A stretch of 20,610 nt of DNA from a virus: positions 1-20,610 of IMG/VR virus record IMGVR_UViG_3300027704_000211, one strand, 5' to 3'. Below, in pieces: positions 2,814 to 20,610 of the stretch. The notes below the pieces were generated by a model. It was given only the letters and a program-made list of their open reading frames with translations. It was not told where the DNA came from and searched no databases. Position 1 is the first letter of the stretch; each line of letters opens with the position of its first letter. The position numbers and the translations under genes are program-made.

Positions 2814-2816
2814 ATT

Positions 2817-3452
2817 ATGATTTTTGACAAACGAAAAGGTTCATTATTAAATTACATACAGTTACCGTTACACGTAATAACACCTACTGGTACGTACTTA
2901 GGAACGGGATATAGCATAAAGGGCAAACCAACATATATACTATCTCATGAGAAAGTGAACTTAGAGAGTGTAAACACCTTGACGTTTTCACCAATGAGCA
3001 AAGATGCAATAATACTTGACAACAAACCAACACTTGAAGTTACTGACAACGTAGTTGGTTACAATTATAAGATTTCAGATACTGAATTGAATTATGGGTA
3101 TATTACTGTTGCGTCTACTCGCATAGATATCGAATCTAAAAAGATAACAAAAGGAATGGCTGAATTTATTTTAGAAAAACAATTACGAAATATCGGTAAC
3201 ATACTTGAAAAGTTTATCAAAGTAAAAATAGCACAACCACAATATGATGCACTGTTATATCACTTTTATAATGAAGGCACGAGTACTATAGAAAATAGTC
3301 CAGTGATTGCTCTTATAAATGCAAAAGATTGGTATGCGATAACTGACGAAATTCAAACAGGTTTAATGAAAAATGACAGAGTAGATGAACGATTGGCTAT
3401 ACAGAAAATGAAAACTGCAAAGATGTTCAGTTACGTGCCAAGTTTTTCTTAA
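2817..3452 (+). CDS. GH24 (T4-lysozyme)-like protein, probably the detached tail lysozyme; active site not evident
   Basis: The protein has 211 residues. Residues about 110-207 follow the C-terminal lobe of GH24 lysozymes: [10 protein letters not shown], then [21 protein letters not shown] (134-155, close to the common K-V-x-L-x-Q-x-Q-F-DAL-x5-N-x-G-T pattern), [12 protein letters not shown] (161-172) and the basic [18 protein letters not shown] near the end. The N-terminal lobe should carry the Glu/Asp/Thr triad of T4 lysozyme (E11, D20, T26). The nearest match, residues 77-97 ([12 protein letters not shown], then TELNYGYIT), has Asn where Glu is expected and no clear Thr. The first 75 residues match nothing I know. 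The start is supported by AAGGGG (2805-2810), inside the last codons of gp5, so translation is probably coupled. In T4 this domain lies inside gp5, so a baseplate role is likely, possibly structural rather than catalytic. The gene overlaps the 3' end of clpP by 4 nt, tail to tail. Confidence 0.72.
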
Positions 3453-4039
3453 CGAGTTACTAAGACTTTATCTGCTAATCCATAAGCAACAGTTTCTTCC
3501 GCTGACAAAAACTTGTCACGTTCCATCGCTTCAGTTAACTCATCAAATGTCTTACCAGCAGAATTGTGATTCACATAGATTTGAGTCAATCTTTCTTTCA
3601 TTTTCATCATCTCATCGACTTGAATCTTCATATCAGTTGCTTGTCCGCCTGCACCACCACTAGGTTGATGAATCATTGTGCGACTGTTTGGCAACACATG
3701 TCGTTTATCTTTAGCACCTGCTTGAGCAAGTAACGAACCCATCGAACATGCTTGGCCCATCACAGTTGTAGCAACATCAGAACTAATAAATTGCATAGTA
3801 TCATATATCGCCATGCCAGATGTGACAGCACCACCAGGTGAGTTGATATAAAAATGAATATCTTTGTCTGGATTCTCTGCTTCTAAGAATAATAACTGGG
3901 CACAAATCAAATCTGCCTGATAGTCATTAACTTCACTAGTCAAGAATATTACTCTTTCTTTTAATAAACGAGAGAAAATATCGTAACTACGCTCTCCATT
4001 TGCTGATTGGTCAACGACCATTGGTACTAAAGTTGGCAT
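3449..4039 (-). CDS. clpP: ATP-dependent Clp protease proteolytic subunit (ClpP, family S14)
   Basis: ClpP forms a 14-mer barrel of serine protease subunits in the cytoplasm, degrading proteins unfolded by ClpX or ClpA. The 196-aa protein is full length and aligns end to end with bacterial ClpP ([25 protein letters not shown] at 65-70, IYDTMQF at 79-84, IHQPSGG). The triad is intact: S99 in QACSMGS, H124 in TMIHQP and D175 in MERDKFLS. It begins MPTLVPMVV, matching the mature N-terminus of E. coli ClpP (ALVPMV), so the 14-residue E. coli propeptide is absent. Part of the ClpX-docking surface is kept (Y64, F84), while the first Tyr of the E. coli YLY motif is His62. It is the only minus-strand gene here and has its own promoters. 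AAGGA lies 9 nt before the ATG. No ClpX/ClpA partner is visible, so a host or distant phage ATPase is presumably used. Confidence 0.96.
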
Positions 4040-4177: not shown

Positions 4178-4534
4178 ATGGCATTATTCACTGGTTTCAG
4201 TACAAAAAATAAAAAAGCAATCAATCACGAGTTGACTGATAAAGATTTAGTGGTAGAAGACCTTATGAATCACATCATGACTCGCAAGGGCGAACGTATA
4301 ATGCTACCTACTTATGGCTCTATTATTCATGATATGATATTTGAACCATTAACCTCTGAAACAACTGAGTTAATTGAAGAAGATTTAACAGAAATTATAA
4401 AAGATGATCCACGATGCAACTTTCTTAGTATCGAGGTTACAGATTCTGATCACACTGTTAACGCAATCGTGCGCCTTGAAATTCTGCCGTCGAAAGAGCC
4501 AGTAGAACTAAGTATAGATTTAGATAGAGAATAA
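4178..4534 (+). CDS. 25: Baseplate wedge subunit gp25
   Basis: This is a small 118-aa protein of the gp25/W family (T4 gp25, P2 gpW). In contractile tails it sits in the inner baseplate next to the sheath and helps start sheath polymerisation, forming the wedge core with gp6. The family signature is clear at residues about 34-58: MTRKGERIMLPTYGS followed by IHDMIFEPL, then the helix ETTELIEEDLTEII (61-74) and a final beta hairpin (FLSIEVTDSDHTVNAIVRLEI). Length is typical. The leader region is AT-rich, and the purine run just upstream (GAGAAAAAAACAAA) is only a weak ribosome binding site, but the N-terminus (MALFTGFSTKN) makes the ATG convincing. gp6 follows after 13 nt, matching the common order in which gp25 precedes the baseplate J/gp6 protein. 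Confidence 0.93.
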   Translation: MALFTGFSTKNKKAINHELTDKDLVVEDLMNHIMTRKGERIMLPTYGSIIHDMIFEPLTSETTELIEEDLTEIIKDDPRCNFLSIEVTDSDHTVNAIVRLEILPSKEPVELSIDLDRE

Positions 4535-4547
4535 TAGAGAGAATAAT

Positions 4548-7500
4548 ATGAGCCAAGAACGAACCGATAATTTATTTGCAAGTGAGAGTTGGACAGCAGT
4601 ATATACCGCATTTACCAATGTCAGTCTTAAAGCATACGACTTCGATACTATTAGAGAAGCACTATTAGCCTACACTGTTCAAACTTATCCTGAAAAATTT
4701 AATGATTTCATTGCAAGTTCAGAATTTATCGCAATTTTAGATTTAGTCGCATATATGGGACACAGTTTAGCATTCAGATTAGACATGAATACTAGAGAGA
4801 ACTTTATGGACACTGCTGAACGTAGAGCAAGTATTCTACAAATGGCAAAGACGTTGGGTTACAATAAAACTAGACCAATCAACGCAAAAGGCTTCATGAA
4901 GATTACTAGTATAACGACTGATGAAGATGTATTTGATAATGAAGGTGTTTCTTTGGCTGGTAAGAATGTCGTTTGGAATGACAGTAACGATATAGATTGG
5001 TATGAGAACTATATCAGTATTCTAAATTCTTCTTTCTCTGGTACAACTAAAATTCAGAATCCAACATCTACATTAACTATTTCAGATGTCGAGCATTCTG
5101 TATATAATATAAACGAAGATGCAACATCAAAAAGTGTAAATTACTCATTCTCTTCTAATATTAATGGAAAGAGTAGAAGATTTGAAGCAGTATCAGTAGA
5201 ATTAGATACTGAGAACACTAAGATTGGCGAAGCAGAACCAAACGTAACAAACAAATTTACAATCATTAATAGAAATGACAATTTGGGATCAGCAAGTGAT
5301 AGAACTGGATTCTTTGTTTACGCAGTTGGTGGCTCACTTGAATACCAAGATTTCATATACAATACTAAAATATCAAATAGAATAGAAACAATAAATGAGA
5401 TTAATATATCTAATTCTGATGTATGGGTCCAGAAGATAGACTCGGCAAGAACATATGTATCGAGCGTAACATCAATCGACAACGACACAAGAGAAACAGC
5501 AATCTACAATAGTTTGCGTACTGGTTCTGGAGATATCGTAAGTATAAATTCCATAGACAATAATGGAATTGCACTACATTATCCAGATGGGGTTTTTGGT
5601 AACGCGGCGTCTGGCAACTACAGAGCATGGTATAGAAAAGTTGACAATGATAATTTCTCTGTAAACTCTAATGATATCGTTAACAAAATTATAACAATTC
5701 CGTATATTGGAACTGACAGTAGAACATATAGACTAACATTAACAATGTCAAGTACACTTGACTTTGGCGAAAACTTCGCTGGCGAAACATACACTAGTGT
5801 ACGAAGAATTGCTCCAAGAAGTTATTATTCACAAGATAGAATGGTCAACGCACAGGATTATAATGTGTATCCTCTGTCGTTGGGAAACAATGTAATTACG
5901 AAGTTGAAGTCAGTAAATACATCATTTGCTGGTAACTCACGTTTTTATGAAATGGATGACGTTCTAGGTCATCACTCTAACTTGAGTGTAACGGGTTCAG
6001 ACGGAAGTCTATTCGTTGAAGACGAAGCAGTATCAATTCCACTGAGTTACAACAAACTACAAGGAAAGAGTGACAACTTTATAAGAAATGAGTTAACTAA
6101 AGCATTGAAACATCCTAGTCTATTGAATAGTTATTTTCATAAGAATAAAAGCAACAACGCTGTAATTATTGCACAGACAACAACTTATGTCCCACTCTCA
6201 GCAGATGGAATGAAAATTACAACAGCAGCCGCACCAACTAGTGGCGTTTTTGTAGGAGACTACGTTGAGTTATTAATGACTGCATCGGGAAAAACTATTT
6301 GGGCAGATGTTAAGAAAGTAGAAACAACGACTAACACAGATGATACACTTACATTGAATAAGTTCATTCCAGAAATTGGAACACTTATAAACGTGGTAAG
6401 AGGATTTAGAACTAAATTTACGGATACTGAAATAACGGCAATTAAGGCTGAGGTTGATAGTAGTACTGAGCAAACTTTTACATTAAAATATGCAGTAGTA
6501 TCAACTGTATGGGAATGGAAAGTACACCCAGTAACGTCCCCGCCAACAATCCCATCAGAAGCACATATCGTATTTAATTACAATTCTGGTATCAGAGACA
6601 ACGAATCACAGTATACTGCCAAATTTACAGGTAAAAAAATTGCATTCGAAAGTAGAGATCAAGTTAAGTTTTTCTATGGCAACACAACTGATATAATCGA
6701 TAATGAAACAAATTTATCCAAACGAGATAAAATATTTCTCAATTACTTAAAAGAAGATCCAGTAACAGCGGGAGCGTCTACTCAAGCATCTGGCAAGGAA
6801 GTTACAGTAGGACAAGTTTCACTATCCAACGTAGTAACCGATGGTAGTACTGGCGCAACATTTGATGCTGAATTCAGGCATAGTGGCGCACCAACAACTT
6901 ACGATTTTGTAGAAGGTAACGACTATCTTGATAATGCAACATATACTCATAGTCTAGTATCTCCCGCTGGAGTAAAATATTCAATCGATAGAACTACTGA
7001 GATTACACATCCCAGCAACAATACATGGAAGATTATTGGATATACAGACCAATATAATACTGTGCCAGCAGATACGAATGAATACAAACTTTCACTGGCC
7101 GTTAGTGATTTGACAAACTATTCAACAGCACAAACTCCTATAGCAGGCGGAACAGATGTTCCCGTTACTGCAACACCTGTTTCAGATGTTTTCACATCAC
7201 TTGACGCAGTTGGATTCCTAGAGGGATATACTGGTAATGTTGGCACCGCTAATAATTCACATTCAACTCAATCATCTAATGAACTAGATACTTTAGGATT
7301 TAAGGGAAAGAAATCACTGTCTTATTTTCAATCAGCCGCCACAACTAATAACTTCAGATGGGCTGATGTATCTGATGCCGCGGAAACAACTGATTTTACC
7401 ACTGGATACGATTCTGTCCAAGACGAGTATACTTTTACTATGTCTACTGCCGCATCGGCTCTTTATAATAATCTTGATGCTGATATCTATTTCAAGCAAT

Positions 7501-8807
7501 ATGCTTATGGAGAATTTACAGTAACGAGTGCAACTCCACTTACTACTAGTAATATTTTACTCAGAAATACTACAGGCACAATACTTAGTAATGATGACAT
7601 AACAGTTACTAATACAAGTGGCACAAACTATAAGATTGTTTTTTGGACATATGCAATAACAGTCGGAGATCTCATTGATGTAATCATTGGAGTGAATGCC
7701 GATATAACCAGTATTGCAGATTTCTCAGTGAGAGTCAGTGCATCATTTGGACTTGAACTAGGTACAACTTCAACTACTACCACATACACTGGCACATCAT
7801 CATATGTTTATGATGACTACTTGACACCAGCGGGATATATAGATAATACAAAAGTTAAATTGTTCGCATCAAATACTAACGATAATCCTTTTGCTATGCT
7901 AGATATTACAACTAACGAAACTGTTGTAATGGAGCAATACACTGTAAATAACATAAAATATGAAAGAGCATCTAAGACTGTAGTTGCTGCCGCATTACTA
8001 AGTGAAGTTCCAGAAGCCGCGACAATATACTATAATACGTTTAGTAGTGTTTGGTACATTCGCGAAGCGGGCGGTTGGAGTGTCTTAACTGGACACGTAG
8101 ATCAAACTACTACTACTCCGCCATTGATTCAAATCAACTACAATAGTATACAATATAGAGTAATAGAGGGTATCACGTTCGTTAAAGATGAACATACAAG
8201 TTTTAGATGGGACCATTACGCTGATATAAACAAGAGAATAGATCCTAGTACTAGTAATATTGTCGATATGTATGTATTGAGTACTGATTATGTTAGAAAA
8301 GTAAATGAATGGATAGCAAATGATTTCTCAACTACTACTCCAGTTGCCCCAAATAATTTTGAATTAGCAAAGATAATGAATAGTATTGAACCGAAGGGAG
8401 CGATAGCAGACCATATTGCTTATATTCCTGTAGAGTTTAAATATCTATTTGGGTCATATGCTAAGGTAGAGAACCAAGCAATATTCAAAGTCATTAAGAA
8501 ACTGGGAGTTGGATACACTGACAGTGAAATTAAAACCGCAGTATCTACTAAAGTAAATGAATACTTTGCAATTAACAACTGGGACTTCGGTGCAACATTC
8601 TACTTCTCAGAACTGGCAGCATTCTTACACAAAGAATTAGGAGATTACATTTCGAGTGTAATAATTACACCAAAATATTCAGGTAACAAATTTACGGATT
8701 TGTTAAGTATATCGTGTGCATTAAATGAAATATTCATGGCAGTAACAACATCTAGTGACGTAAAAATAATTACACAATTAGCATCATCTGAATTGGTAGG
8801 CAAATAA
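4548..8807 (+). CDS. 6: Baseplate wedge subunit gp6, greatly enlarged
   Basis: gp6 dimers form the continuous inner ring (iris) of the T4 baseplate and trigger sheath contraction. Residues about 52-108 carry the characteristic opening: FNDFIASSEFIAILDLVAYM, then LAFRLDMNTRENFMDTAERR and LGYNKTRP. Residues about 407-500 resemble the next conserved part (GETYTSVRRIAPRSYYSQDR, VNAQDYNVYPL). The C-terminal family region runs from about 1218 to 1419 (FRWDHYADINKRIDPSTSNI, then a gp6-like end with WDFGATFYFSELAAFLH). The protein has 1419 residues against about 660 in T4. The extra length lies mainly between about residues 560 and 1215, a Thr/Ser/Asn-rich, beta-strand-like segment with no motif I recognise. 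GAGAG precedes the ATG by 6 nt, and gp7 starts 1 nt after the stop. The family call is firm; the central region's role is unknown. Confidence 0.9.
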   Translation: MSQERTDNLFASESWTAVYTAFTNVSLKAYDFDTIREALLAYTVQTYPEKFNDFIASSEFIAILDLVAYMGHSLAFRLDMNTRENFMDTAERRASILQMAKTLGYNKTRPINAKGFMKITSITTDEDVFDNEGVSLAGKNVVWNDSNDIDWYENYISILNSSFSGTTKIQNPTSTLTISDVEHSVYNINEDATSKSVNYSFSSNINGKSRRFEAVSVELDTENTKIGEAEPNVTNKFTIINRNDNLGSASDRTGFFVYAVGGSLEYQDFIYNTKISNRIETINEINISNSDVWVQKIDSARTYVSSVTSIDNDTRETAIYNSLRTGSGDIVSINSIDNNGIALHYPDGVFGNAASGNYRAWYRKVDNDNFSVNSNDIVNKIITIPYIGTDSRTYRLTLTMSSTLDFGENFAGETYTSVRRIAPRSYYSQDRMVNAQDYNVYPLSLGNNVITKLKSVNTSFAGNSRFYEMDDVLGHHSNLSVTGSDGSLFVEDEAVSIPLSYNKLQGKSDNFIRNELTKALKHPSLLNSYFHKNKSNNAVIIAQTTTYVPLSADGMKITTAAAPTSGVFVGDYVELLMTASGKTIWADVKKVETTTNTDDTLTLNKFIPEIGTLINVVRGFRTKFTDTEITAIKAEVDSSTEQTFTLKYAVVSTVWEWKVHPVTSPPTIPSEAHIVFNYNSGIRDNESQYTAKFTGKKIAFESRDQVKFFYGNTTDIIDNETNLSKRDKIFLNYLKEDPVTAGASTQASGKEVTVGQVSLSNVVTDGSTGATFDAEFRHSGAPTTYDFVEGNDYLDNATYTHSLVSPAGVKYSIDRTTEITHPSNNTWKIIGYTDQYNTVPADTNEYKLSLAVSDLTNYSTAQTPIAGGTDVPVTATPVSDVFTSLDAVGFLEGYTGNVGTANNSHSTQSSNELDTLGFKGKKSLSYFQSAATTNNFRWADVSDAAETTDFTTGYDSVQDEYTFTMSTAASALYNNLDADIYFKQYAYGEFTVTSATPLTTSNILLRNTTGTILSNDDITVTNTSGTNYKIVFWTYAITVGDLIDVIIGVNADITSIADFSVRVSASFGLELGTTSTTTTYTGTSSYVYDDYLTPAGYIDNTKVKLFASNTNDNPFAMLDITTNETVVMEQYTVNNIKYERASKTVVAAALLSEVPEAATIYYNTFSSVWYIREAGGWSVLTGHVDQTTTTPPLIQINYNSIQYRVIEGITFVKDEHTSFRWDHYADINKRIDPSTSNIVDMYVLSTDYVRKVNEWIANDFSTTTPVAPNNFELAKIMNSIEPKGAIADHIAYIPVEFKYLFGSYAKVENQAIFKVIKKLGVGYTDSEIKTAVSTKVNEYFAINNWDFGATFYFSELAAFLHKELGDYISSVIITPKYSGNKFTDLLSISCALNEIFMAVTTSSDVKIITQLASSELVGK

Positions 8808-8808
8808 T

Positions 8809-11800
8809 ATGGCAAAGAAGATTTATGACTTTTTACCAAGTCATTTAAAGAACGATGAGTTAGAAACAATATTCGAAACTACATTAGACCGCGTATTCTC
8901 TGTTGGTGAAATGGAGAAGACAAAAGCATTTGTTGGTAGAAGAGAAAAAGGAATATATAACAGCAATGATATATATCTTTCATATCCAGCACAGGCTTAT
9001 GCAAGAGATAATTACGGACTAGAACCAACATTCACAAATAGAAATGCGACTGATAATATATTCTATGATGACTTGTTGAATGCGTTATACAACAAAGGCG
9101 CACTGACAAACGACCAAAGACGATTATTTAAAAGTACATTAAAAACAGTTACTTTACCAATAGACTTAGATAAGTTTGTCAACTATAGTATGTACTACTG
9201 GGTATCTCCTAGTTTTGACTCTTCAATCACAGGCTCAACAAAGAAGCACTATGTCACAATCGATAAAGATGCTACTGCAACAGACTTCTGGAAAACTAAT
9301 AACTCTTGGTATCACTATGATGATATCAGTGCCTTAATTACTGATGACAATTTTACTTTAATATCTCAAGCACTAAGACCTATTATTGAATTTGATAAGA
9401 ACATTGAACTAAGTGATACAAGTGCGGCAACAACAATAGCATCTTCATTTACTGTTCCTACTTTTAAGTCGTATGATTCTACTAACACATATCTTAGTGA
9501 CATAAAAATATTTCATTACGTAACGGGCACATATACTGCTGACACAGAGTTGGGACTTGCTCCAAAGTTAATATCTGGCGACTACGAAAGTGAATTCGTA
9601 TTTAATATAGACTTGATAGAATCTTCAACTTATAAACTATCATCAGCATACAAGAAGTTATACATCACATCAACATTTGATTACAGAAACTTAAGACAAG
9701 AATTGGGCGATAGTCTATCAGTAACAGATATTGAATTACTACAAGCACCAAAAAATTCTAACACAATAGATTTGTATGTTGACGGACAAAAGCAAATAGC
9801 AAACTATACATTCAATAGTGCAGACAATAAAATTACAATGACTGGAGAAGTCAGTGGTAATATATACGTTGATTATTGTACTGCTACTCCAGTTGTATAT
9901 GACGGGCAAACTGTATTTCAACGTATCGACCCATCAGTAGAATATAATGTAGATAACAAATCATACGTAGATACAGAGATGACGTACTCTCTTGTCTATG
10001 AACATCTTGTTCGCATAATCGAGACTGTATCGGGTTTAACGGGTGAGGCAAACGCAGTTAATAACTACAGAACATCGGGAACAAACACAGACAAACTAAG
10101 ATTTGCAAACCAAGGTAGTGTACTTATTAAAAATACTATCGATATCAAAGAGGCATACTTTGCACTAACACGTGATGACTACGACCCTATTAAAGCAACA
10201 GAATTCTTATCTGGTGCATATAATGGCTACAAAAATAAATTATTGACTACTGTTCTTTCTATTTTAGAATCAAGTGCAAGTACGACTAAAACTAGTTTGC
10301 AAATATTAGAAGAAGCAATTAGTACTATTTCTCTTGGAAAACATTCAAGTGTAAGTATTTTTAAAGATAGTACTATGTTGAACTTTGGTGAGAATCATTC
10401 TCATTATCAAACACTTGATGCTACCATTATCGCTGGTGCGACAGAACAAGTTATGCCCTTATTTACTGACACGATACTAAACGACAAAGATGTAGTTGTT
10501 ATTCTGAACAATGTCGTTATGAGATTGAAAGGAGATTATACATTAAATACTGGCAAAACAGAAATAACATTTAATACTTCCTTATCTGCTAGTGATACGT
10601 TAACTGTTAGACATTATACTAATACAAAAGAAACATACATACCACCGAGTGCAACTTCATTAAAAATTGCACCAATGTATCTTCCAGAATTTGTTACAGA
10701 TTCACAGTATAGCCCCGCGGTTTCATTTATTAGAGGACACGATGGGTCAATGATTCCAAAATATGAGACACGAGTGGACAATATACTTCTTACATTTGAG
10801 ACAATGATTTATAATAACTTGGTAGAGGATGCTAGTACTCAAGCAGACAGTATGAATTATGGATTATATGATACTTCTAGTACTGATTATTCAAATATTG
10901 AAAAGAAATATATGATGTATCCATTCTTTAAGAAATGGATGATGAGAAACAATGTAGACAACTTAGACAACACCAACTTCGATGCAGATCCATCAGCATA
11001 TAAAACGTGGAATTATCGAGCAAAGGACGAAGACTCAGCGGGTCATTGGAGAGGACAATTATTATACGCATATGGCACAGACCGACCATTAGAAGAACCC
11101 TGGAAAGTATTAAAATTAACATCGATACCACTGGGATTTAATACAGCACACGGTTCAGATTACACCTCAGTTGCATTTTGGACATCATTGATATCAACTA
11201 ATTCTTTAACTTGCCCAGTGCCAGTCGATGGGTCAGGAAACTTAAAAACGCCTAATGAACTATTCTTTGGTGGTGCAATAACATCAAGTGATATACTATT
11301 GATGAATCAAGCATGGGAGTTCGGTGATGGTTCACCAGTTGAACTTGCATGGTCAAGAAGTAGTGAATTTGCTTTTGCTGAATTCATGTTAATGATGTTG
11401 TCGAGTCCATTCGAAGTTATGAACAATTATAGTACACAGATAAAAGACATTATTACATACTCTAATAAAAATGAAGGTATCGACACTAATGTTGTTCTTG
11501 CTGATAAAGCCAATTATTCATTTAAGTTGGGCTCTAAGTTAGGTGGCTTCGTTAACAATTTCAAATTACAAACAGAAAACAATTCATTATCAAATAGTAG
11601 ATTCTCTGAAATACCAACAGACAATTATGATTTATTTGTTCACGCGGGAGTGCCAAATAGAAGTGAATACTTTAGTGCTATCGTATTAGAAAAAGTATCA
11701 TTAGATTTGCCATATCCTGCTTATAGTCTTGCAAATGCATCAACTTACGTTAAGGGAGATATCGTACTAAACACGGGCGACAGCAAATACTATAAAAGAA

Positions 11801-14800
11801 AAACAACAGGCATCTCTGCGAAAGAGACTGCTGGCCTAATCACATTTGATTATAGCAGTTGGACACTTATATCACAACCAAAGACTAGTAAGTTCGGATT
11901 CCAAGTACACGGATATGACGAAATTAATCCAACATTCTATTCAATGGGATGGGATACATCAAGTGGTGAGAAAACATTCTCAACGGCAGGTGATAGACTT
12001 GCTCTGAAACAATGGCAGGGTGGAGAATATTATAGACTAGATTCGTATATATTATGGAACAATACTCCTTACGTTTGTCTTACAAATCATACATCAACTA
12101 CAATATTTGATGACAATATTAAAGATTGGAAACCAGTAGTAGAATGGCCAACAACAAATAAAACACACGCGAATGGTTATAAAGAGTTGGTAGATGACAC
12201 TATAAAGAATTATAATTATGGCGACATCTTAGAAACAGTAGATGACGTTGCTCATTTAATTATGGGTTATCAACATTACTTAAAATTAGTAGGATGGGAA
12301 TTCACAGACACAGACGAAAATAGTGATATCATAGATTGGGAAAATCTATTGTACAAGTTCTTAGATTGGCAAACTGAACAACATTCTGTTGGAGACTTTA
12401 TTACATTGACTCCACTATTAATGGGTGGCAGTTTCAATGCAGCCTATGGCGTAGCAAGTGTGGCTACTGAAACATTCAAGAATTTTTATCGAGTAGTAGA
12501 TTCATCGGGTAGACTTATACCAAATACTGAACTTAATTTTCACACAGATGGTGCCAAATTATCGTTCACTAGTAACATTCCTATCTATGGAATGAAAATG
12601 GACGTGAGAGATATTGAACACGCATTTGTTGTTGATAGAGTTGACAGTTACGATGATGTCATCTATGACCCTCACACTCACACTCGTAATCTTCGTATGC
12701 AAATTGATTGCAACCGAACAATCGATTGGGACGGAACTATGTCTGTCGATGGTTATCTTGTACACGATAACAAGTTAATACCAAACTTCGACACAATGAT
12801 TGAAGAAACTCGCCATTATCGAAATACAATTGTCGACCAAGGATTGTCGATAGTTAACAAATTAAAATCAAATCACATGGGATATACAACTAGAGCATAC
12901 TTGTCTAACCATGGAATTGAAAGAGAATCACAACTAGAATTCTATAAAGGATTCTTATCTCACAAAGGAACAAATTCAAGTATTAATAGAATTGTTAATA
13001 ACAACGGCAACTTTAAAGATATCGAGCATTCTGATATTTGGGCAGTTAAGTTAAGCGACTACGGACAAGTATCAACTAATCTTACGATGACAAAAGATAT
13101 AACAGTCAATGATATGATTAGCGATCCATTCTTAATAGAATATCCAAACATAACAAAAACGTTTGTTGCTCAAGCATCTAAACCCGCTATAGCGATAAAA
13201 ACAACAGGATATGTTGATGCTGTCGATATAAACTACACAGTAAGTAAGCAAAGTGATCTAGTGAATTTAGCAACATCAACCAATACACTCTACGAAGGAG
13301 ATACTGCCTGGGTTCAATTCGACACAGAAAGAGACTGGGATGTGGTACGATTAAGTGAAGTAGCAGAGATAAGTTATGTTGGAGAAACGTCTGACAACCA
13401 ATTGTATATTGGAATGCTCACTGAGATAGATTCTACATTTATTGATAAACCAATTTATCTGAAGATTGCTGGTGCTGAACTATCTCCAACGATAGATGGA
13501 TATTATTTACTTGCCGCTAATGGAACAAAAACTGTAAGCGGAAGTACTATTTACGAATATCTAGTATACGAAGAAGATTTTGAACCAGTGATTGTTGAAA
13601 TAGATTCTTCAACTACTAACAGTATATTTGTTCCAACTAACACAGATTCGGGCATTGAAGCAATTGGTTCAGTAAGTAATCCTGTATTCACTAGTAGCGA
13701 TACAATTACTATTGATGGTACATCTTTCACTTATACGCCTACCGCAGCCTCTAATTCTGGAATATCAATACTTGGTACAGTTGCAAACCCAGTAGTATCC
13801 GAAGGTGAACAAGCAAGATTTGTTATTTACAATGCTAGTGGATTAGTTGAGAATGGCACAAACACAACAGTCACATTCTCTGGAACTGTTGCCTCAACAA
13901 CAACTGCATTTAGTTCGACTTATGGTGACCAAGTAACAATCGATGGTACAACATTAACTGTAGATTACGCAGGAAGTAATAGTATATCACTAACTTCAAC
14001 TGCTACAAAAAGTTCACCACTTACTACAGGAACCACAGTTGTAATAGACTCGATAACAAAAACAGTTACAGCCTTGACTAAAACTGGAACAGTTACAGCA
14101 CCAGTGATGGCATCAACCAAACCATTATCAATTAATGGTCAAACTGTGACACTTACGAGTGGAGATACTCTTGCTGAAATTATTATAGCAATCAATTCAA
14201 CATCAACTTCAGTACTTGCTAGTAACTCAGGAACTAACGAATTAGTTCTAACGACATCATCTCCTGAATTAGATATGTCAGGTAGTGCGTTACAAGACTT
14301 GGGCTTATCTGCTACTACTTTGTACTATGATTCGAAACTAGACAATCTAGCAACTGAACTCAATACAATAACTAATATCACGTGTACTGTTGGCACTAAC
14401 AATCTTATGACCATAACAAGTTCTGGAACCTCAATGGTTATTTCTGGAACAGCATTATCTGAATTGGGTATTACTGCGGGTACTTACTTAACTAATGCAG
14501 ATCCAACATCAACAAGTGTTGTTGAACAAATAAATGCATTAAGTATAACGGGCGTATCAGCCGCAGTTGTAACTGGAACGATTAAAATAACAAGTGCAAA
14601 TCACAACTTAGATATAGTTGAAGTGACTACAGGCGCTATGGGAAGATTGGGATATGCTACGACTACAGTGGCAGTTGATGCTACTGATAATATTCTCAGT
14701 GATTTAAATACTCAAGTATTCTCTACATCAACAACAACTGCAACACGGTCAGACAGACAGATACTAATAACAAGTTCTGAAAAGAGCATAGTAACTAGTA

Positions 14801-17562
14801 ATATTACAGGAAATTCTCTTTCTGATATAGGAATAACAGTTGGCACATATTCAAATACATCAGTATTAAGTTCTACTGCAATAAACTTTGCTGGACAAAT
14901 TACTGACGCCTCTGTAACGGGTCTTGTTGTTAATTTATCAAGTGATGGCAGAATGATATTTACTTCTGACGGAGTAAGTATGTCTTTCTCTGGAACAACA
15001 TCAGAATTGTTAACTAGAATAGGACTTGTAAGAGATTACTCAAACGTAACAAGTAGTGCAAATTATAAAGCAATGCTTTGGAAATCAATCCGACACACCT
15101 CAGATGTTAATGGTGCAACTTTTACAGACTTCTATACTAGTTTAGGACTGAACAGCACAAGTAAATTATGGGTAGATGATTATGAGAATAAGGGTTGGGC
15201 AATACTTGATAGAAATTCATCAGGAACACTTTCAGTATATGCTAGACAATCGACAGTTATAAACACGGATTTAACAAAAAGATTGATAATAAAAGATGGC
15301 GACAACTTTATTAATCATCAAATATATGATCCACTTAACTTAAAGATGCCAGGCTCAATTGTTTCTAATTTAGAATACATCGCATGGAACGATCCTGCGA
15401 GTTATGATACAGTTACTAGTCCTGATATATGGTTAGATGAGAAGTTGGATAAAATTTGGTGGGACACTGACTTAGCAAGATTTTATAGATACAATGATTA
15501 TGGTGATAGCAATGGAAACTTAAATGTCAACTTCGTGAAGAAATATTGGGCACCATCATACGTACCCGGCTCAACAGTAGTTGTAAATAAATGGACAAAA
15601 TCTAGAACATTACCAGTTGAGACAACAACATATAATACTAAGAAATATTATGACGATGTTGCAGGTAAAGAAGTTACAGATTATTTCTACTGGTCATCAA
15701 CAAGTACTGATGTTGTCGAAATTGCAATGTTGATTTCAGCAGGCGGAACTAAGAATAAGTTTATACCAGTTGGACCATCAAGTATTCTTATTAGTAATAA
15801 TGCAACTTCTTATGGTAGTGAAACGATAAACACAACATTACATTATCAACAAGAGTCTGGCGTTCGCAAAGGGCACTCTGATTGGGAGATGTTAGCAGAA
15901 AATTCAGATACTACTGTGCCTGTTGCGTTTTTGACTGACATGATAGATTCAGTATCTAATCTTACAATAGCAAATACCTTCAGTTCTAGATTATCATCAT
16001 CTCAATTAACTGATGTTAATAATGCGATAATTCCAATTTCTTGGATTACAGACTTGGCTATCAATGACATAGTAGTCACAATCAATAGTAACACAGTAAA
16101 AGCAAGTTATCTAACTATTGATGCTGTTGGTTCTAACTTGAAGATATCTCAAACACACACAATGATAGCAGGCGATATATTAAGAGTATACAAAGTTGAG
16201 GGTAAGACAGACAACTGGTTTACAAACAATGCTACTGCTAGAAGTAATTTTGCTTCAGTTATAAATGATACAATGAGCAACAAGATACTAACAAGTATAT
16301 ATTCTAAGTATACGGAGTATTTAGATACCGATGATATTATCTTTGACTTAACTGATTGGTATCTAAATGATAATTATAAGACAATTGATACATTCTCATA
16401 TCTATCAACTACTCGAAATTTTGATATGATTGCTGAGTATGAAAAAGGAATAAAATCATTTAAGTTGAAATTGCCAGCACATGATGAGTATTATTTTGAA
16501 CATGATAATATATTACAACTAGTTAACAGAAGTAACAGTGCGTTGAAAGTATCGTTTGATAGTCTTGTCTTCCCAGAAACATCGTTTAATACTTATTACA
16601 ACAATGCTGTGGGAATTCAAATTCAAGAATTAATGAATCTGTTTCAGGATTATCCAGACACTTCATTTATTAATAATATATTCTTCACTATGGTAAAGTA
16701 TCTTTATACAGAAAAGACATATCCTGCTTGGCTGTTTAAAACAAGTTACATAGATTTGAATTTATATAATCGAGATTTAAAACAATACGCAGTATATCAA
16801 AGGGATAGTGAAGAAGATGTATTAGAATATGTTAGAGAAGCAAAACCATATCACGTTAAAATAAGAGAAATTATACGAACAAACGCAACAAGTGATAAAC
16901 TAACTGCATCTACTACAATTGATGAGAATATGAATCTTACTTTAGATTTTGGTAAAGGTGACATAAGTAGATACGCAGAATCATTGATAGATGGAGGCAC
17001 AACTGGAAATATACCAACTACCGAGATTTCTGGCATTGCTAATGTACCAGGCTCATTTGACTTTGAACAAGGTTCATTACTAAGAAATAGAAATACACCA
17101 ACATCTGGCCCCGATGGATTCGACACTGGCTTCGTAAGATTTGATGGACTAGAAGCAACAATATTAAGATTGCAAACATATCCTGCTGATATTACGGGTG
17201 GCGTTGTCGGAGACCCCGATAATACCTTACTGTATGCTTATGATATCTACGGTAGAGGATATAGCATAAACGTCACGGCTACAGGAACTATATCTGCATT
17301 CGATGGAACAACTTTAACAATTACTCCAGCACATTCGTCAAAATTTGATGATGGAGTGTCTGGTACTAATAAGAAACTAATTGCAGTTCAAAAAGCAGGA
17401 AGTTCTGATATGGAATTCATGCTATACGACAAGAAAGTAAGCACAGTGTTAACAATCAGTAACAGGGCATTGTATACGGGATTAGGATACGAATTTACAA
17501 ATCTTGATACTGTATATGTACTTGATACTCCTTTACAACTAGTTTTACAAGATTTATTATAG
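8809..17562 (+). CDS. 7: Baseplate wedge subunit gp7, giant form with internal repeat modules
   Basis: gp7 is the large peripheral wedge protein linking the T4 baseplate core to its rim (gp8, gp10). This version has 2917 residues against 1032 in T4. The N-terminus is gp7-like (LPSHLKNDELETIFETTLDR; KFVNYSMYYWVSP from residue 122). Near the C-terminus is the conserved-looking EDVLEYVREAKPYHVKIREI (about 2669-2688), followed by a Gly-rich beta tail. Visible inserts include two aromatic modules at about 970-1110 (K982-G-D to W1018, and W1069 to W1107) that look like small carbohydrate-binding modules, and a Thr/Ser-rich repeat block at about 1620-2080. The frame is open throughout, with no sign of frameshift. 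It starts 1 nt after the gp6 stop, with only a weak ribosome binding site, so translational coupling is likely. The gp7 call is firm at both ends; the functions of the inserts are inferred. Confidence 0.87.
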   Translation: MAKKIYDFLPSHLKNDELETIFETTLDRVFSVGEMEKTKAFVGRREKGIYNSNDIYLSYPAQAYARDNYGLEPTFTNRNATDNIFYDDLLNALYNKGALTNDQRRLFKSTLKTVTLPIDLDKFVNYSMYYWVSPSFDSSITGSTKKHYVTIDKDATATDFWKTNNSWYHYDDISALITDDNFTLISQALRPIIEFDKNIELSDTSAATTIASSFTVPTFKSYDSTNTYLSDIKIFHYVTGTYTADTELGLAPKLISGDYESEFVFNIDLIESSTYKLSSAYKKLYITSTFDYRNLRQELGDSLSVTDIELLQAPKNSNTIDLYVDGQKQIANYTFNSADNKITMTGEVSGNIYVDYCTATPVVYDGQTVFQRIDPSVEYNVDNKSYVDTEMTYSLVYEHLVRIIETVSGLTGEANAVNNYRTSGTNTDKLRFANQGSVLIKNTIDIKEAYFALTRDDYDPIKATEFLSGAYNGYKNKLLTTVLSILESSASTTKTSLQILEEAISTISLGKHSSVSIFKDSTMLNFGENHSHYQTLDATIIAGATEQVMPLFTDTILNDKDVVVILNNVVMRLKGDYTLNTGKTEITFNTSLSASDTLTVRHYTNTKETYIPPSATSLKIAPMYLPEFVTDSQYSPAVSFIRGHDGSMIPKYETRVDNILLTFETMIYNNLVEDASTQADSMNYGLYDTSSTDYSNIEKKYMMYPFFKKWMMRNNVDNLDNTNFDADPSAYKTWNYRAKDEDSAGHWRGQLLYAYGTDRPLEEPWKVLKLTSIPLGFNTAHGSDYTSVAFWTSLISTNSLTCPVPVDGSGNLKTPNELFFGGAITSSDILLMNQAWEFGDGSPVELAWSRSSEFAFAEFMLMMLSSPFEVMNNYSTQIKDIITYSNKNEGIDTNVVLADKANYSFKLGSKLGGFVNNFKLQTENNSLSNSRFSEIPTDNYDLFVHAGVPNRSEYFSAIVLEKVSLDLPYPAYSLANASTYVKGDIVLNTGDSKYYKRKTTGISAKETAGLITFDYSSWTLISQPKTSKFGFQVHGYDEINPTFYSMGWDTSSGEKTFSTAGDRLALKQWQGGEYYRLDSYILWNNTPYVCLTNHTSTTIFDDNIKDWKPVVEWPTTNKTHANGYKELVDDTIKNYNYGDILETVDDVAHLIMGYQHYLKLVGWEFTDTDENSDIIDWENLLYKFLDWQTEQHSVGDFITLTPLLMGGSFNAAYGVASVATETFKNFYRVVDSSGRLIPNTELNFHTDGAKLSFTSNIPIYGMKMDVRDIEHAFVVDRVDSYDDVIYDPHTHTRNLRMQIDCNRTIDWDGTMSVDGYLVHDNKLIPNFDTMIEETRHYRNTIVDQGLSIVNKLKSNHMGYTTRAYLSNHGIERESQLEFYKGFLSHKGTNSSINRIVNNNGNFKDIEHSDIWAVKLSDYGQVSTNLTMTKDITVNDMISDPFLIEYPNITKTFVAQASKPAIAIKTTGYVDAVDINYTVSKQSDLVNLATSTNTLYEGDTAWVQFDTERDWDVVRLSEVAEISYVGETSDNQLYIGMLTEIDSTFIDKPIYLKIAGAELSPTIDGYYLLAANGTKTVSGSTIYEYLVYEEDFEPVIVEIDSSTTNSIFVPTNTDSGIEAIGSVSNPVFTSSDTITIDGTSFTYTPTAASNSGISILGTVANPVVSEGEQARFVIYNASGLVENGTNTTVTFSGTVASTTTAFSSTYGDQVTIDGTTLTVDYAGSNSISLTSTATKSSPLTTGTTVVIDSITKTVTALTKTGTVTAPVMASTKPLSINGQTVTLTSGDTLAEIIIAINSTSTSVLASNSGTNELVLTTSSPELDMSGSALQDLGLSATTLYYDSKLDNLATELNTITNITCTVGTNNLMTITSSGTSMVISGTALSELGITAGTYLTNADPTSTSVVEQINALSITGVSAAVVTGTIKITSANHNLDIVEVTTGAMGRLGYATTTVAVDATDNILSDLNTQVFSTSTTTATRSDRQILITSSEKSIVTSNITGNSLSDIGITVGTYSNTSVLSSTAINFAGQITDASVTGLVVNLSSDGRMIFTSDGVSMSFSGTTSELLTRIGLVRDYSNVTSSANYKAMLWKSIRHTSDVNGATFTDFYTSLGLNSTSKLWVDDYENKGWAILDRNSSGTLSVYARQSTVINTDLTKRLIIKDGDNFINHQIYDPLNLKMPGSIVSNLEYIAWNDPASYDTVTSPDIWLDEKLDKIWWDTDLARFYRYNDYGDSNGNLNVNFVKKYWAPSYVPGSTVVVNKWTKSRTLPVETTTYNTKKYYDDVAGKEVTDYFYWSSTSTDVVEIAMLISAGGTKNKFIPVGPSSILISNNATSYGSETINTTLHYQQESGVRKGHSDWEMLAENSDTTVPVAFLTDMIDSVSNLTIANTFSSRLSSSQLTDVNNAIIPISWITDLAINDIVVTINSNTVKASYLTIDAVGSNLKISQTHTMIAGDILRVYKVEGKTDNWFTNNATARSNFASVINDTMSNKILTSIYSKYTEYLDTDDIIFDLTDWYLNDNYKTIDTFSYLSTTRNFDMIAEYEKGIKSFKLKLPAHDEYYFEHDNILQLVNRSNSALKVSFDSLVFPETSFNTYYNNAVGIQIQELMNLFQDYPDTSFINNIFFTMVKYLYTEKTYPAWLFKTSYIDLNLYNRDLKQYAVYQRDSEEDVLEYVREAKPYHVKIREIIRTNATSDKLTASTTIDENMNLTLDFGKGDISRYAESLIDGGTTGNIPTTEISGIANVPGSFDFEQGSLLRNRNTPTSGPDGFDTGFVRFDGLEATILRLQTYPADITGGVVGDPDNTLLYAYDIYGRGYSINVTATGTISAFDGTTLTITPAHSSKFDDGVSGTNKKLIAVQKAGSSDMEFMLYDKKVSTVLTISNRALYTGLGYEFTNLDTVYVLDTPLQLVLQDLL
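13657..14124 (+). repeat. Degenerate ~36-residue repeats inside gp7
   Basis: A short module beginning with G-[ST]-V occurs at gp7 residues 1620 (GSVSNPV), 1656 (GTVANPV), 1692 (GTVASTT) and 1760 (GTVTAPV). The first three are spaced exactly 36 residues apart and the last is at about twice that distance. Several copies contain a strand of the TITIDGTSFTYT type (also VTIDGTTLTV, VVIDSITKTV). The repeat is visible in protein; at DNA level it is diverged. It leads directly into the longer repeat that follows. Confidence 0.6.
14125..15042 (+). repeat. Five degenerate ~60-residue repeats inside gp7, flagellin-hook-like
   Basis: Each unit ends in a Gly-x-x-hydrophobic-x-x-[LI]-G-[LIY] element: GSALQDLGLSATTLY (residue 1825), GTALSELGITAGTY (1880), GAMGRLGYATTTV (1942), GNSLSDIGITVGTYS (2001) and GTTSELLTRIGLVRDY (2062). 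Spacings are 55, 62, 59 and 61 residues. Before each element come a helix such as LATELNTI or VVEQINAL and a strand such as LMTITSSG or IKITSANH. The first unit opens LSINGQTVTLTSGDTLAEII, which closely resembles the 'flagellin hook IN' motif of FliD and flagellins. The family link is inferred by eye. Confidence 0.65.
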
Positions 17563-17649: not shown

Positions 17650-18312
17650 ATGTTTAATGATAAAATAGACTCACAAGTAATTGGAACCCTAAAAATCTAC
17701 GATAAAGATAGTGGAGAAATGCTTGTACAAAAGAAAAATGCAATTCATCCTGGAAACATGGCGTATGTACTCGCATCTGCACTTGCAAATAAACCAACAA
17801 GTGTGAATGCATCAGGTTCTGCTCCAAGTATCAATTGGATGGCGTTTGGTAATGGAGGAAGTGTATCTACTACTACTCTTTCTTATCGTTCTCCCAGAGT
17901 AAATCCAACATATGATCAACTACCGATAACATCGAGTAATTCTTCATTATATGTACCAAAATACGAACAATTAACAACAAACACGGTATATTATCCAGGT
18001 CAGGATATGGGTTCGGGGAAAATAGTACCAAACAATACAGCAAAAGTAAATTTCAGTGTGGACTTAACACACGCGGATTACGCAACTGCTGTAGGGGAAA
18101 CGGTTCCGTCAAGTGATAGTTCGACTGACACAAGTGCAGTTGAAGCCTTTACTATTGACGAAATTGGTTTATTATCTGGTGTAACCACTAGTGGTTCTTT
18201 ACTAGATAAAACAAAAACATTAATGCTAACACATGTGACATTTCATCCCGTCTTACTGTCGGCAAATAGAACAATTGTAATCGACTACACGGTTACAATA
18301 CAAATTAGTTAA
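17650..18312 (+). CDS. Virion structural protein downstream of gp7 (T4-like marine phage type)
   Basis: The protein has 220 residues. It starts DKIDSQVIGTLKIYDKDSGE with a following KKNAIHPGNM (about residues 28-37), then INWMAFGNGG (61-70), a Tyr/Ser/Thr-rich middle, TIDEIGLL (168-175), and a beta-rich end (TIVIDYTVTIQIS). This layout recalls virion proteins encoded near the baseplate genes of T4-like marine phages, but I cannot name a T4 equivalent; it does not resemble T4 gp8, which follows gp7 in T4. No signal peptide or membrane segment is visible. The ribosome binding site is weak (AAGAG near 17637-17641). Two late-type motifs lie just upstream, so it probably heads the unit formed with the next two genes. 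A baseplate-peripheral or fibre-connecting role is inferred from position only. Confidence 0.72.
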   Translation: MFNDKIDSQVIGTLKIYDKDSGEMLVQKKNAIHPGNMAYVLASALANKPTSVNASGSAPSINWMAFGNGGSVSTTTLSYRSPRVNPTYDQLPITSSNSSLYVPKYEQLTTNTVYYPGQDMGSGKIVPNNTAKVNFSVDLTHADYATAVGETVPSSDSSTDTSAVEAFTIDEIGLLSGVTTSGSLLDKTKTLMLTHVTFHPVLLSANRTIVIDYTVTIQIS

Positions 18313-18329
18313 AATACAGGAGTATAACA

Positions 18330-19247
18330 ATGGCTTCAGGCTCAACAATTACATACAACGACTTAACAAGTCTGCGTGACCAAATGAATACTATCTTAAA
18401 TGGTACTGGTGTTCACGGTGGTTATAACCAATCACACACGGTGGCAGCAAATCCAACAACCGGTGCATCTATTGACGATTCATATTATGATTCGCTTCAT
18501 AGTGCCGCGGCAAAGATATCAAATTACTACAACATTTCAAACCCATTTACGGCAGTAGATGCAGGAACAACAATCAATTGGACTCATTATGGTTCAGTTG
18601 CTGGTGCTTTCAATACATCTATCACCGACCGTTTTGACGCACCTTGGTCTTATACAGACTGGGACACAAGTGTTCAAAACGAAACATCACAAACAGCAGC
18701 CAATTGGAACGGTACTAGAACGCAAATAGTTAAATTTGCATTCGGTTCTGCTGCCAATCTAAATGCTTGGTTCGCCGCAGGCGGAGAACTTAGAGTTACA
18801 GCATCACATAACGATACAAGTGGCAATCAACAAGGAACATCTTGGGAACAACTTACTGGTGAACTAGGTACTTTTACTTATTCAGTAAGACCAGAAGATT
18901 CAAGTTCAGTTGATGCACGTACACGTTACAAGCACAACAGTGTATCAACTTCTTATGTAGTTCATAAGAAAGAAATTGCAGATGACTCTGATTATAGTGC
19001 AAACTATATTCAAGTTTCAGCAAAAACAGAAAACGGTGGTGCAGACTTTATGATTCAGATTGACTTAGCAGATGCTCACGTTGCCCGTACAGGCAGTGGC
19101 TCTGGTTATGGTGGAGCATGGAACTGGACTGGTGCAGATAATGTACCTGGAACATCAACAGTTACTATTGCTTCGAAGAAGTTAACAAACGCAAGTGGGT
19201 CAGTTACTTTAACTAATCCAACTTCAACTGTGACAGATTCATTATAA
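18330..19247 (+). CDS. Virion structural protein, first of a tandem related pair
   Basis: The protein has 305 residues and is related to the following gene. Shared landmarks are HGGYNQSH (29-36), a region with SYYDSLHSAAAKI (51-63) resembling the partner's SLWDELLTSML, FAAGGELRVTASH (148-160), the ADFMIQIDLADAH element (238-250), and the Trp/Gly-rich GGAWNWTGAD before a final strand (TSTVTIASKKL, 275-285). The N-terminal helix plus G-Y-x-Q-S pattern and the 'aGGElR' element are familiar from structural proteins of T4-like cyanophages. A tail-fibre or baseplate-periphery role is plausible, but no enzymatic or binding motif is seen. The start is well supported by AGGAG (18318-18322), 7 nt upstream. 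It lies 17 nt after the previous stop and is probably co-transcribed with it. Confidence 0.78.
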   Translation: MASGSTITYNDLTSLRDQMNTILNGTGVHGGYNQSHTVAANPTTGASIDDSYYDSLHSAAAKISNYYNISNPFTAVDAGTTINWTHYGSVAGAFNTSITDRFDAPWSYTDWDTSVQNETSQTAANWNGTRTQIVKFAFGSAANLNAWFAAGGELRVTASHNDTSGNQQGTSWEQLTGELGTFTYSVRPEDSSSVDARTRYKHNSVSTSYVVHKKEIADDSDYSANYIQVSAKTENGGADFMIQIDLADAHVARTGSGSGYGGAWNWTGADNVPGTSTVTIASKKLTNASGSVTLTNPTSTVTDSL

Positions 19248-19273
19248 TCTGTTATTTTGTGAGATAAATTCTT

Positions 19274-20239
19274 ATGCCACAGAGTTATTATTTAGGAGGT
19301 AAAGTTCGCGCCGCGGACTTTAACCTTTTTGCTAACGATATAAACAACATTGTTGGTATCGGCGCAAACGATTCAGGATATGGTCAGAGTCATCTCGTTA
19401 TCACTACCGCTGTAGTAGGCGGAGCGGTGACAGCCTCATTGTGGGATGAACTGTTGACTTCTATGCTTTATGCGTCCAGACACCAAGGAACAACAATTAC
19501 AGTACCAACTAGCACATCAGATCCTAGTTGGCCTACTGTTAGCAATATTATTTCTATACTACCCACGCTGACGGCTGATATAGCAACTATAGTCTCCAAT
19601 AAATTGAACAGTAGTTTATCGTATATGACTGTAGAGGCTAATCAAATTTCAGATTCTGAAACTTATGTAGACCCACTCAATGGCACTCCTACATGGACAA
19701 TTATCAACCAAGTATACTATGAAGCCAAACTAGCATTTGTAGATTCAAATGCACGTAGACACTTTTTCAATTCAGGTGGCGAAGTCAGATTTGACGCAGT
19801 GTTAAGTGGAGTTGATGCGGCACATGCCCAAAGTGTTGACTGGCAAACAATGTTAAGTGCTATTGCAACAGTTAAATTATCACATTCTTCTACAGAAAGT
19901 TCAGCAAGTGTAGGTACTCCGGGCAATGGTTTTAACAACTTAACTTCAACATATCAACTTATCTACTCAAAAGGCGGAACAGGAGATTATTCTGGAAACC
20001 AATTAAACATATACGCAAAACTTAACGGTACTGCTGATATTGATGTTAAGATGTCATTTGATGATGCTCACACACAAGATACTGGTACTTGGTCTACTCC
20101 ACCCTACAGCGGAACATGGACTGGTACTGACTATGTTGCTGGCATACTCACTGTTACATTAGATGAACTTAGACCGTCAGATACACCAGACGGTGTTAAT
20201 CTTCCATCTCCAACTTATTCAACTATTTCTTCTCTTTAG
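19274..20239 (+). CDS. Virion structural protein, second of a tandem related pair
   Basis: The protein has 321 residues and is a diverged paralogue of the preceding gene. It has KVRAADFNLFANDINNIVG (10-28), SGYGQSH (34-40), SLWDELLTSMLYASRHQG (55-72), ARRHFFNSGGEVRFDA (160-175), DIDVKMSFDDAHT (255-267) and SGTWTGTDYVAGILTVTLDEL (279-299). The HQG and HFFNSGGE elements fit the structural-protein family of T4-like cyanophages better than the first copy does. The 26-nt gap upstream has no good ribosome binding site. An in-frame TAA at 19265-19267 prevents any earlier start, so the ATG at 19274 stands. The gene ends just before a sigma70-type promoter and looks like the last member of its unit. 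Its precise role is unknown. Confidence 0.8.
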   Translation: MPQSYYLGGKVRAADFNLFANDINNIVGIGANDSGYGQSHLVITTAVVGGAVTASLWDELLTSMLYASRHQGTTITVPTSTSDPSWPTVSNIISILPTLTADIATIVSNKLNSSLSYMTVEANQISDSETYVDPLNGTPTWTIINQVYYEAKLAFVDSNARRHFFNSGGEVRFDAVLSGVDAAHAQSVDWQTMLSAIATVKLSHSSTESSASVGTPGNGFNNLTSTYQLIYSKGGTGDYSGNQLNIYAKLNGTADIDVKMSFDDAHTQDTGTWSTPPYSGTWTGTDYVAGILTVTLDELRPSDTPDGVNLPSPTYSTISSL

Positions 20240-20241
20240 AC

Positions 20242-20270
20242 TTGACTTTTAGGTCGTTTTACTGTATTAT
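20242..20270 (+). promoter_or_regulatory. Sigma70-type (early) promoter for the right-edge gene
   Basis: A -35 TTGACT (20242-20247; 5 of 6) is separated by exactly 17 nt from a -10 TATTAT (20265-20270; 5 of 6). The expected transcription start is near 20277, giving a leader of about 20 nt that contains AGGAGA (20283-20288). It is built like the clpP promoter, with the same 17-nt spacing, and marks a change from late to probably early transcription. It begins 2 nt after the preceding stop codon. Confidence 0.7.
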
Positions 20271-20295
20271 TGATACTAATATAGGAGAATAAACC

Positions 20296-20610
20296 ATGGT
20301 CGATACTACCGAAAAAGTAAAAATAGAATCATCTGAAGAAGACTTACAACGATTAAAGAAGGCGTTAGACTTTTCTAACACTATGAAGACTTTCAATCTA
20401 TCAAAAAACAATCTTAAAGTTAAAACACAAAACTTACTAAGTTACAGTACTGCTGGTGGCTCGTTCTCCGTTGACCAATCACTTATATCTTTTATGAACT
20501 TTGTTGTTTCAAGTGGAAAAACTGAAATCTCATTGCTTGATAAGAATGATATCCCAATTCGCATCGAAGACACTGAAAAGTTTCTCGAAGAAGTATCAAG
20601 TTTATATTTT
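20296..20610 (+). CDS. Hypothetical protein, 3'-truncated by the window edge
   Basis: ATG at 20296 opens a frame of 105 codons that is still open at the last base. It begins MVDTTEKVKIESSEEDLQRL, has a Lys/Asn-rich middle (NLSKNNLKVKTQNLLSYSTA), and continues with SLISFMNFVVSSGKTEISLL and IRIEDTEKFLEEVSSLYF. Acidic and basic helices alternate; no membrane segment or known motif is visible. AGGAGA lies 7 nt upstream, and the gene has its own sigma70-type promoter, so it is clearly real and probably expressed at a different time from the structural genes before it. I do not recognise the family, and no function is proposed. Confidence 0.82.
   Translation, partial: MVDTTEKVKIESSEEDLQRLKKALDFSNTMKTFNLSKNNLKVKTQNLLSYSTAGGSFSVDQSLISFMNFVVSSGKTEISLLDKNDIPIRIEDTEKFLEEVSSLYF

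Follow-up and report, generated by a model that had tools for sequence, protein, structure and literature searches.

A conserved tandem array of five predicted flagellin-type units in a giant baseplate-type protein of a jumbo-type phage

What are flagellin-like repeats doing in the middle of a phage baseplate protein? The question is raised by the window, a 20.6-kb virus record that is analyzed here at its full length and comes from a marine, jumbo-type phage. An open frame on the + strand (8809..17562) encodes a giant virion structural protein of 2917 aa, and residues 1617-2078 of its product (13657-15042) hold the repeats. A sequence-only reading had described this protein as the baseplate protein gp7. 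It had seen 36-residue modules followed by five longer units, likened one unit to the flagellin hook IN motif of FliD, and suggested either a host-contact or polymer-contact surface or a spacer that varies by repeat number.

The giant protein is made up of two scaffold regions with the array between them. The N-terminal scaffold (residues 1-1445; 8809..13143, +) has profile matches in seven isolated jumbo phages. The C-terminal scaffold (residues 2124-2697; 15178..16899, +) also matches isolated jumbo phages, with profile matches that extend to approximately residue 2690 in six of the seven and to 2508 in Atu_ph07. The whole product matches PHROG 10938, "virion structural protein" (E 3e-178), and is of the RaK2/PA5oct type, with colinear N- and C-terminal scaffolds behind gp25 and gp6. 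In PA5oct gp355, 121Q gp582, and RaK2 ORF070, the colinear scaffold likewise stands directly after gp25 and gp6 homologues, without the array. For the PA5oct giant protein, the annotation records detection by mass spectrometry.

Baseplate-type genes lie upstream. A gp5-like baseplate hub gene (1548-2813) matches PHROG 13211, gp25 (4178-4534) matches PF04965 with 41.6 bits, and a gp6-like wedge protein gene (4548-8807) is recognized by a weak match. The order gp25, gp6, giant gene is also found in PA5oct, 121Q, XaC1, and RaK2. The placement in a baseplate-type protein is supported, as is a gp7-like position for a baseplate wedge protein. The name gp7 itself is positional because only the gene order gp25, gp6, giant gene supplies it, and a profile of the whole giant protein matched no solved structure in the PDB, T4 gp7 included.

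Other genes of the window are of separate interest. The hub and a T4-type lysozyme (2817-3452) are two separate adjoining genes (1548-3452). A ClpP-like protease gene (3449-4039, -; PF00574, 258 bits, E 6e-77) sits between the lysozyme and gp25 on the opposite strand. 121Q and XaC1 carry a ClpA-like or ATP-dependent protease gene, also on the opposite strand, just past the giant protein gene.

The array proper is composed of five units of about 57 residues, all on the + strand. Unit 1 (U1), with a beta hairpin (LSINGQTVTLTSG), spans residues 1772-1840 (14122..14328) and resembles a canonical flagellin IN domain; without the hairpin, it spans residues 1787-1840. It is followed by U2 (residues 1841-1895; 14329..14493), U3 (residues 1899-1956; 14503..14676), U4 (residues 1958-2016; 14680..14856), and U5 (residues 2021-2079; 14869..15045). 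A G-x-x-L-x-x-[LI]G element closes all five units, as had been read from the sequence, with a longer loop in U5.

The periodicity was detected by comparing unit profiles with hhalign, each unit alignment holding 30-31 orthologues. Six pairs match at 86-97%: U1-U2, U1-U3, U1-U4, U2-U4, U2-U5, and U3-U4. U1, U2, and U4 match one another at 94-97% (U2 reaches 97% with both U1 and U4), and U3 matches U4 at 94% and U1 at 86-90%. The pair U2-U3 reaches 57-60%. U5 is the most diverged unit; its matches to U1, U3, and U4 are weak, and it is tied to the array through U2 alone, at 94%. Scores of the matching pairs are 24-52, and the maximum of 200 column-shuffled controls is 16.6. Single-unit HMMs also pick up other units in the window protein (U2 on U1 at 3e-6 and on U4 at 2e-5). 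The repeat array and its coordinates are thus correct as first described. DNA-level tandem repeat detection returned nothing at the array, so the repeats are old.

Upstream of U1 lie beta-strand modules of the G-x-V-x-x-P ... I-D-G-T type (residues 1612-1770; 13642..14118, +), which are modeled as strands with pLDDT mostly >80. As 36-residue modules, they hold up in part: the first (1612-1650) and the last (1758-1790) match at 94% by hhalign, and the remaining ones match weakly.

The likeness to flagellin was examined by sequence and by structure. PF07196 (Flagellin_IN) matches U1 (14125-14259) with 27.1 bits, and with 25.6 bits in a 101-aa piece, against a cut-off of 22.7 bits. The match is near the threshold and context-dependent, since it falls to 22.6 bits in a longer 322-aa piece. 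Pfam scans of the whole protein and of the 469-aa array found no family at the array; shorter pieces are required, perhaps because of composition-bias correction. None of ten shuffles of the U1-region residues gave a PF07196 match. Among relatives, the family appears at E up to 1 in 16 of 23 and exceeds the cut-off in 3 of 12 long records; two relatives have two or three PF07196 stretches per array, all below the cut-off. It is also the commonest family among 79 single unit sequences (21 at E up to 0.1, best 8e-5).

Other sequence searches gave little. Unit profiles compared with E. coli K-12 FliD and FliC scored no better than with shuffled FliD or FliC, so the evidence for kinship with flagellin and FliD is the family profile together with the fold. 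With V. cholerae FlaC, the unit profile aligns through the LG element at E 0.078 only. Single units have no match in PHROGs, and tblastn of the array against 50,697 phage records returned zero matches. The unit profile found weak traces only (E 0.007 or worse) on seven jumbo phage genomes, and a bacterial genome scan with patterns taken from the N-terminus only found no relatives. Helicase matches from a PDB sequence search with the array were dismissed as chance. The protein is not itself a FliD or a flagellin: Pfam detects neither FliD_N nor the flagellin N- and C-terminal core domains, whether the query is the whole protein or the flanking stretch 13498-14100, and phage scaffold is joined to the array on both sides.

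A first AlphaFold2 model of the array had a pLDDT of 65. A second model, built on a more diverse alignment of 33 sequences, has a mean pLDDT of 88.5 and a pTM of 0.63, the latter leaving the relative arrangement of the units uncertain. In both models, each of the five units has a strand or hairpin leading into a helix, followed by three strands and a second, short helix, and the five units are thus predicted to share one secondary-structure order.

In a Foldseek search, the top match is H. pylori FliD (E 9e-7), and flagellins come next. U1 with its flank superposes by VIA-align on D2 of V. cholerae FlaA (Z 11.5, 1.8 A over 83 residues) and on D2-D3 of E. coli FliD (Z 9.0, 2.0 A over 82 residues). 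Flagellin D2 and FliD D2-D3 overall give Z 9-11.5 over 80-83 residues, with an rmsd of 1.7-2.1 A. Z is about 5-8 when U1 and its flank are superposed on phage sheath proteins (A-1(L), phiTE, XM1, Mu, Milano, and E217). By prediction and superposition, U1 has the flagellin D2 / FliD D2-D3 fold, the same hairpin-helix-three-strand unit with an L-x-x-LG-type end, and the proposed likeness to the flagellin hook IN motif stands as to fold. In the BFVD, long matches are found to uncultured-phage sheath and baseplate J-like proteins at high rmsd, and these suggest that similar arrays may exist elsewhere.

The array is absent from four related phages that share the scaffold. With its immediate borders it covers residues 1605-2085 (13621..15063, +), and in RaK2, 121Q, XaC1, and Vibrio phage 2.275.O the corresponding interval holds 230-260 aa. 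Compared with that interval, the left flank scores 93.5%, the right flank 98.9%, and the array 0.1%. The array is therefore a discrete insertion of ~480 residues, because the scaffold of these four phages is colinear without it. In PA5oct, SCTP-2, and Atu_ph07, other sequence occupies the interval, which measures ~230-290 aa when PA5oct is counted with the first four, ~490 in SCTP-2, and ~1500 in Atu_ph07. An insertion in the lineage of the window is a simpler reading than loss in the others. At the same site in Atu_ph07 (residues 1653-3170), the ~1500 aa contain many G-x-G-Y-type beta repeats, which from their sequence are probably another array at one length-variable site.

The number of units does not vary. 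A related protein was found at 63 viral loci, and 14 loci from a second scan are distant (32-50% in the best segment). The array is present at 58 loci, where seven arrays are cut by contig ends and 51, not all distinct sequences, are read to the end. Each of the 51 has five units, even in sequences with as little as about 37% identity. An extra weak unit trace, under 14 bits, occurs in two records of one sequence. The constant five units rule out the spacer of variable repeat number that had been suggested.

Array length does change in distant relatives, through insertions within U1. Eight of nine aligned distant relatives have an extra ~75-210 residues between the hairpin and the helix of U1 (14155..14172, +; boundaries approximate, from the alignment of L103-L118), and L109 has none. 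The unit number stays constant. That U1 tolerates such insertions argues for solvent exposure. The insertions differ among L112:6343-8460, L116:6310-8286, and L118:6331-8142; a beta module of the type TVDNGVDTPYVLTTSxYxYSNDVITF recurs in several, and that of L112 is partly different. None has a Pfam match over the cut-off.

The array is under purifying selection that is slightly laxer than on the scaffold. In six pairwise comparisons, dN/dS is ~0.18-0.29 for the array and 0.11-0.17 for the N-terminal scaffold. Mean pairwise identity among close relatives is 0.69 in the array, 0.72 in the N-terminal scaffold, and 0.55 in the C-terminus; in the distant set the values are 0.46, 0.57, and 0.45. 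Neither identity nor dN/dS shows hypervariability of the array.

Single FliD- or flagellin-like domains are already known from phage sheath, nozzle, and auxiliary capsid proteins. The insertion domain of the Vibrio phage XM1 sheath (7KH1) resembles FliD D3 (PMC10457771), and the lateral sheath domains of Mu, phiTE, A-1(L), Milano, and E217 are likewise FliD/flagellin-like; like the array, all are found in a contractile-tail protein. The lateral sheath domain of phiTE and Adele is reported to have no direct part in contraction, and the same paper lists the fold not only from sheaths and podovirus nozzles but also from auxiliary capsid proteins, FliD, and flagellin (PMC12846349). The auxiliary capsid protein of crAss001 carries a FliD-like FD domain (PMC10172136), which resembles the array in being on the virion surface but belongs to the capsid and is a single domain. 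The six sheath proteins have one copy, whereas the array has five in a wedge-type protein; unlike in FliD and flagellin, the five stand in tandem within a phage scaffold. What sets the array apart is that five copies are conserved in tandem, and in a wedge-type protein. The decoration domain thus also exists as a conserved tandem of five, inserted into a giant baseplate-type protein at one discrete site, and related phages that have the scaffold without the array provide a natural comparison for the role of such decorations.

The best explanation, and a modestly probable one, is that the array works as an outward arm or spacer of fixed length on the wedge. In this explanation, a jumbo-phage baseplate wedge-type protein would have received an insertion of ~480 residues, built from a stretch of beta modules and then five tandem flagellin-IN-type domains. 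The arm would be made of the same decoration domain of which phage sheaths and capsids bear single copies on their surfaces, and it would hold or space another virion part. We infer that the array lies outside the baseplate in an extended form and does this rather than bind the host. Purifying selection and the lack of hypervariability are more in keeping with such a structural arm than with a surface that binds a receptor. The main rival, somewhat unlikely, is a docking platform on which a tail fibre, a whisker, or the neighboring wedge attaches, its partner fixing length and sequence. A constant array length is equally expected under a specific docking contact, where the unit number would be fixed as observed; units 5 and 3 are best conserved in distant relatives, and phage A-1(L) has a wedge protein whose insertion domain anchors the long tail fibre (PMC10966104). 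Against docking, no partner protein was recognized, and the four ORFs downstream (17650-20610), of which the last is still open where the window stops, carry no functional name; one of them matches PHROG 11259 (function unknown).

Contact with the host or with a polymer, in which the units would bind flagella, glycans, or the envelope at adsorption, is possible, the evidence not favoring it, and we consider it quite improbable. The predicted fold is common to the surface-exposed outer domains of flagellin and FliD, and the U1 insertions of relatives include one with a CBM_X2 trace below the cut-off (E 0.016). Fold likeness alone shows no function, however, and both purifying selection and the absence of hypervariability speak against this role. 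Very improbable is a neutral decoration, a mobile surface domain that was duplicated in tandem and kept without a specific role. The domain does recur across phage virion proteins, and the array is S/T-rich and a little less constrained by selection than the scaffold, but a unit number that is constant down to about 37% identity and a dN/dS well under 1 weigh against neutrality. A wider proposal, itself unlikely, goes beyond the fixed-length arm: the marine jumbo-type lineage may have a dedicated baseplate appendage of five flagellin-type domains in fixed number, with further domains added at U1 and a defined function, either presenting fibres or contacting the host, that has no counterpart in described baseplates.

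Variation is found elsewhere in the giant protein. Residues 2701-2917 (16909-17559) are among its least conserved and most length-variable parts, and the C-terminus of distant relatives ranges from 40 to 737 aa, one being cut by a contig end. Judged from sequence comparison, the C-terminus is probably a better place than the array for seeking host- or fibre-specific variation.
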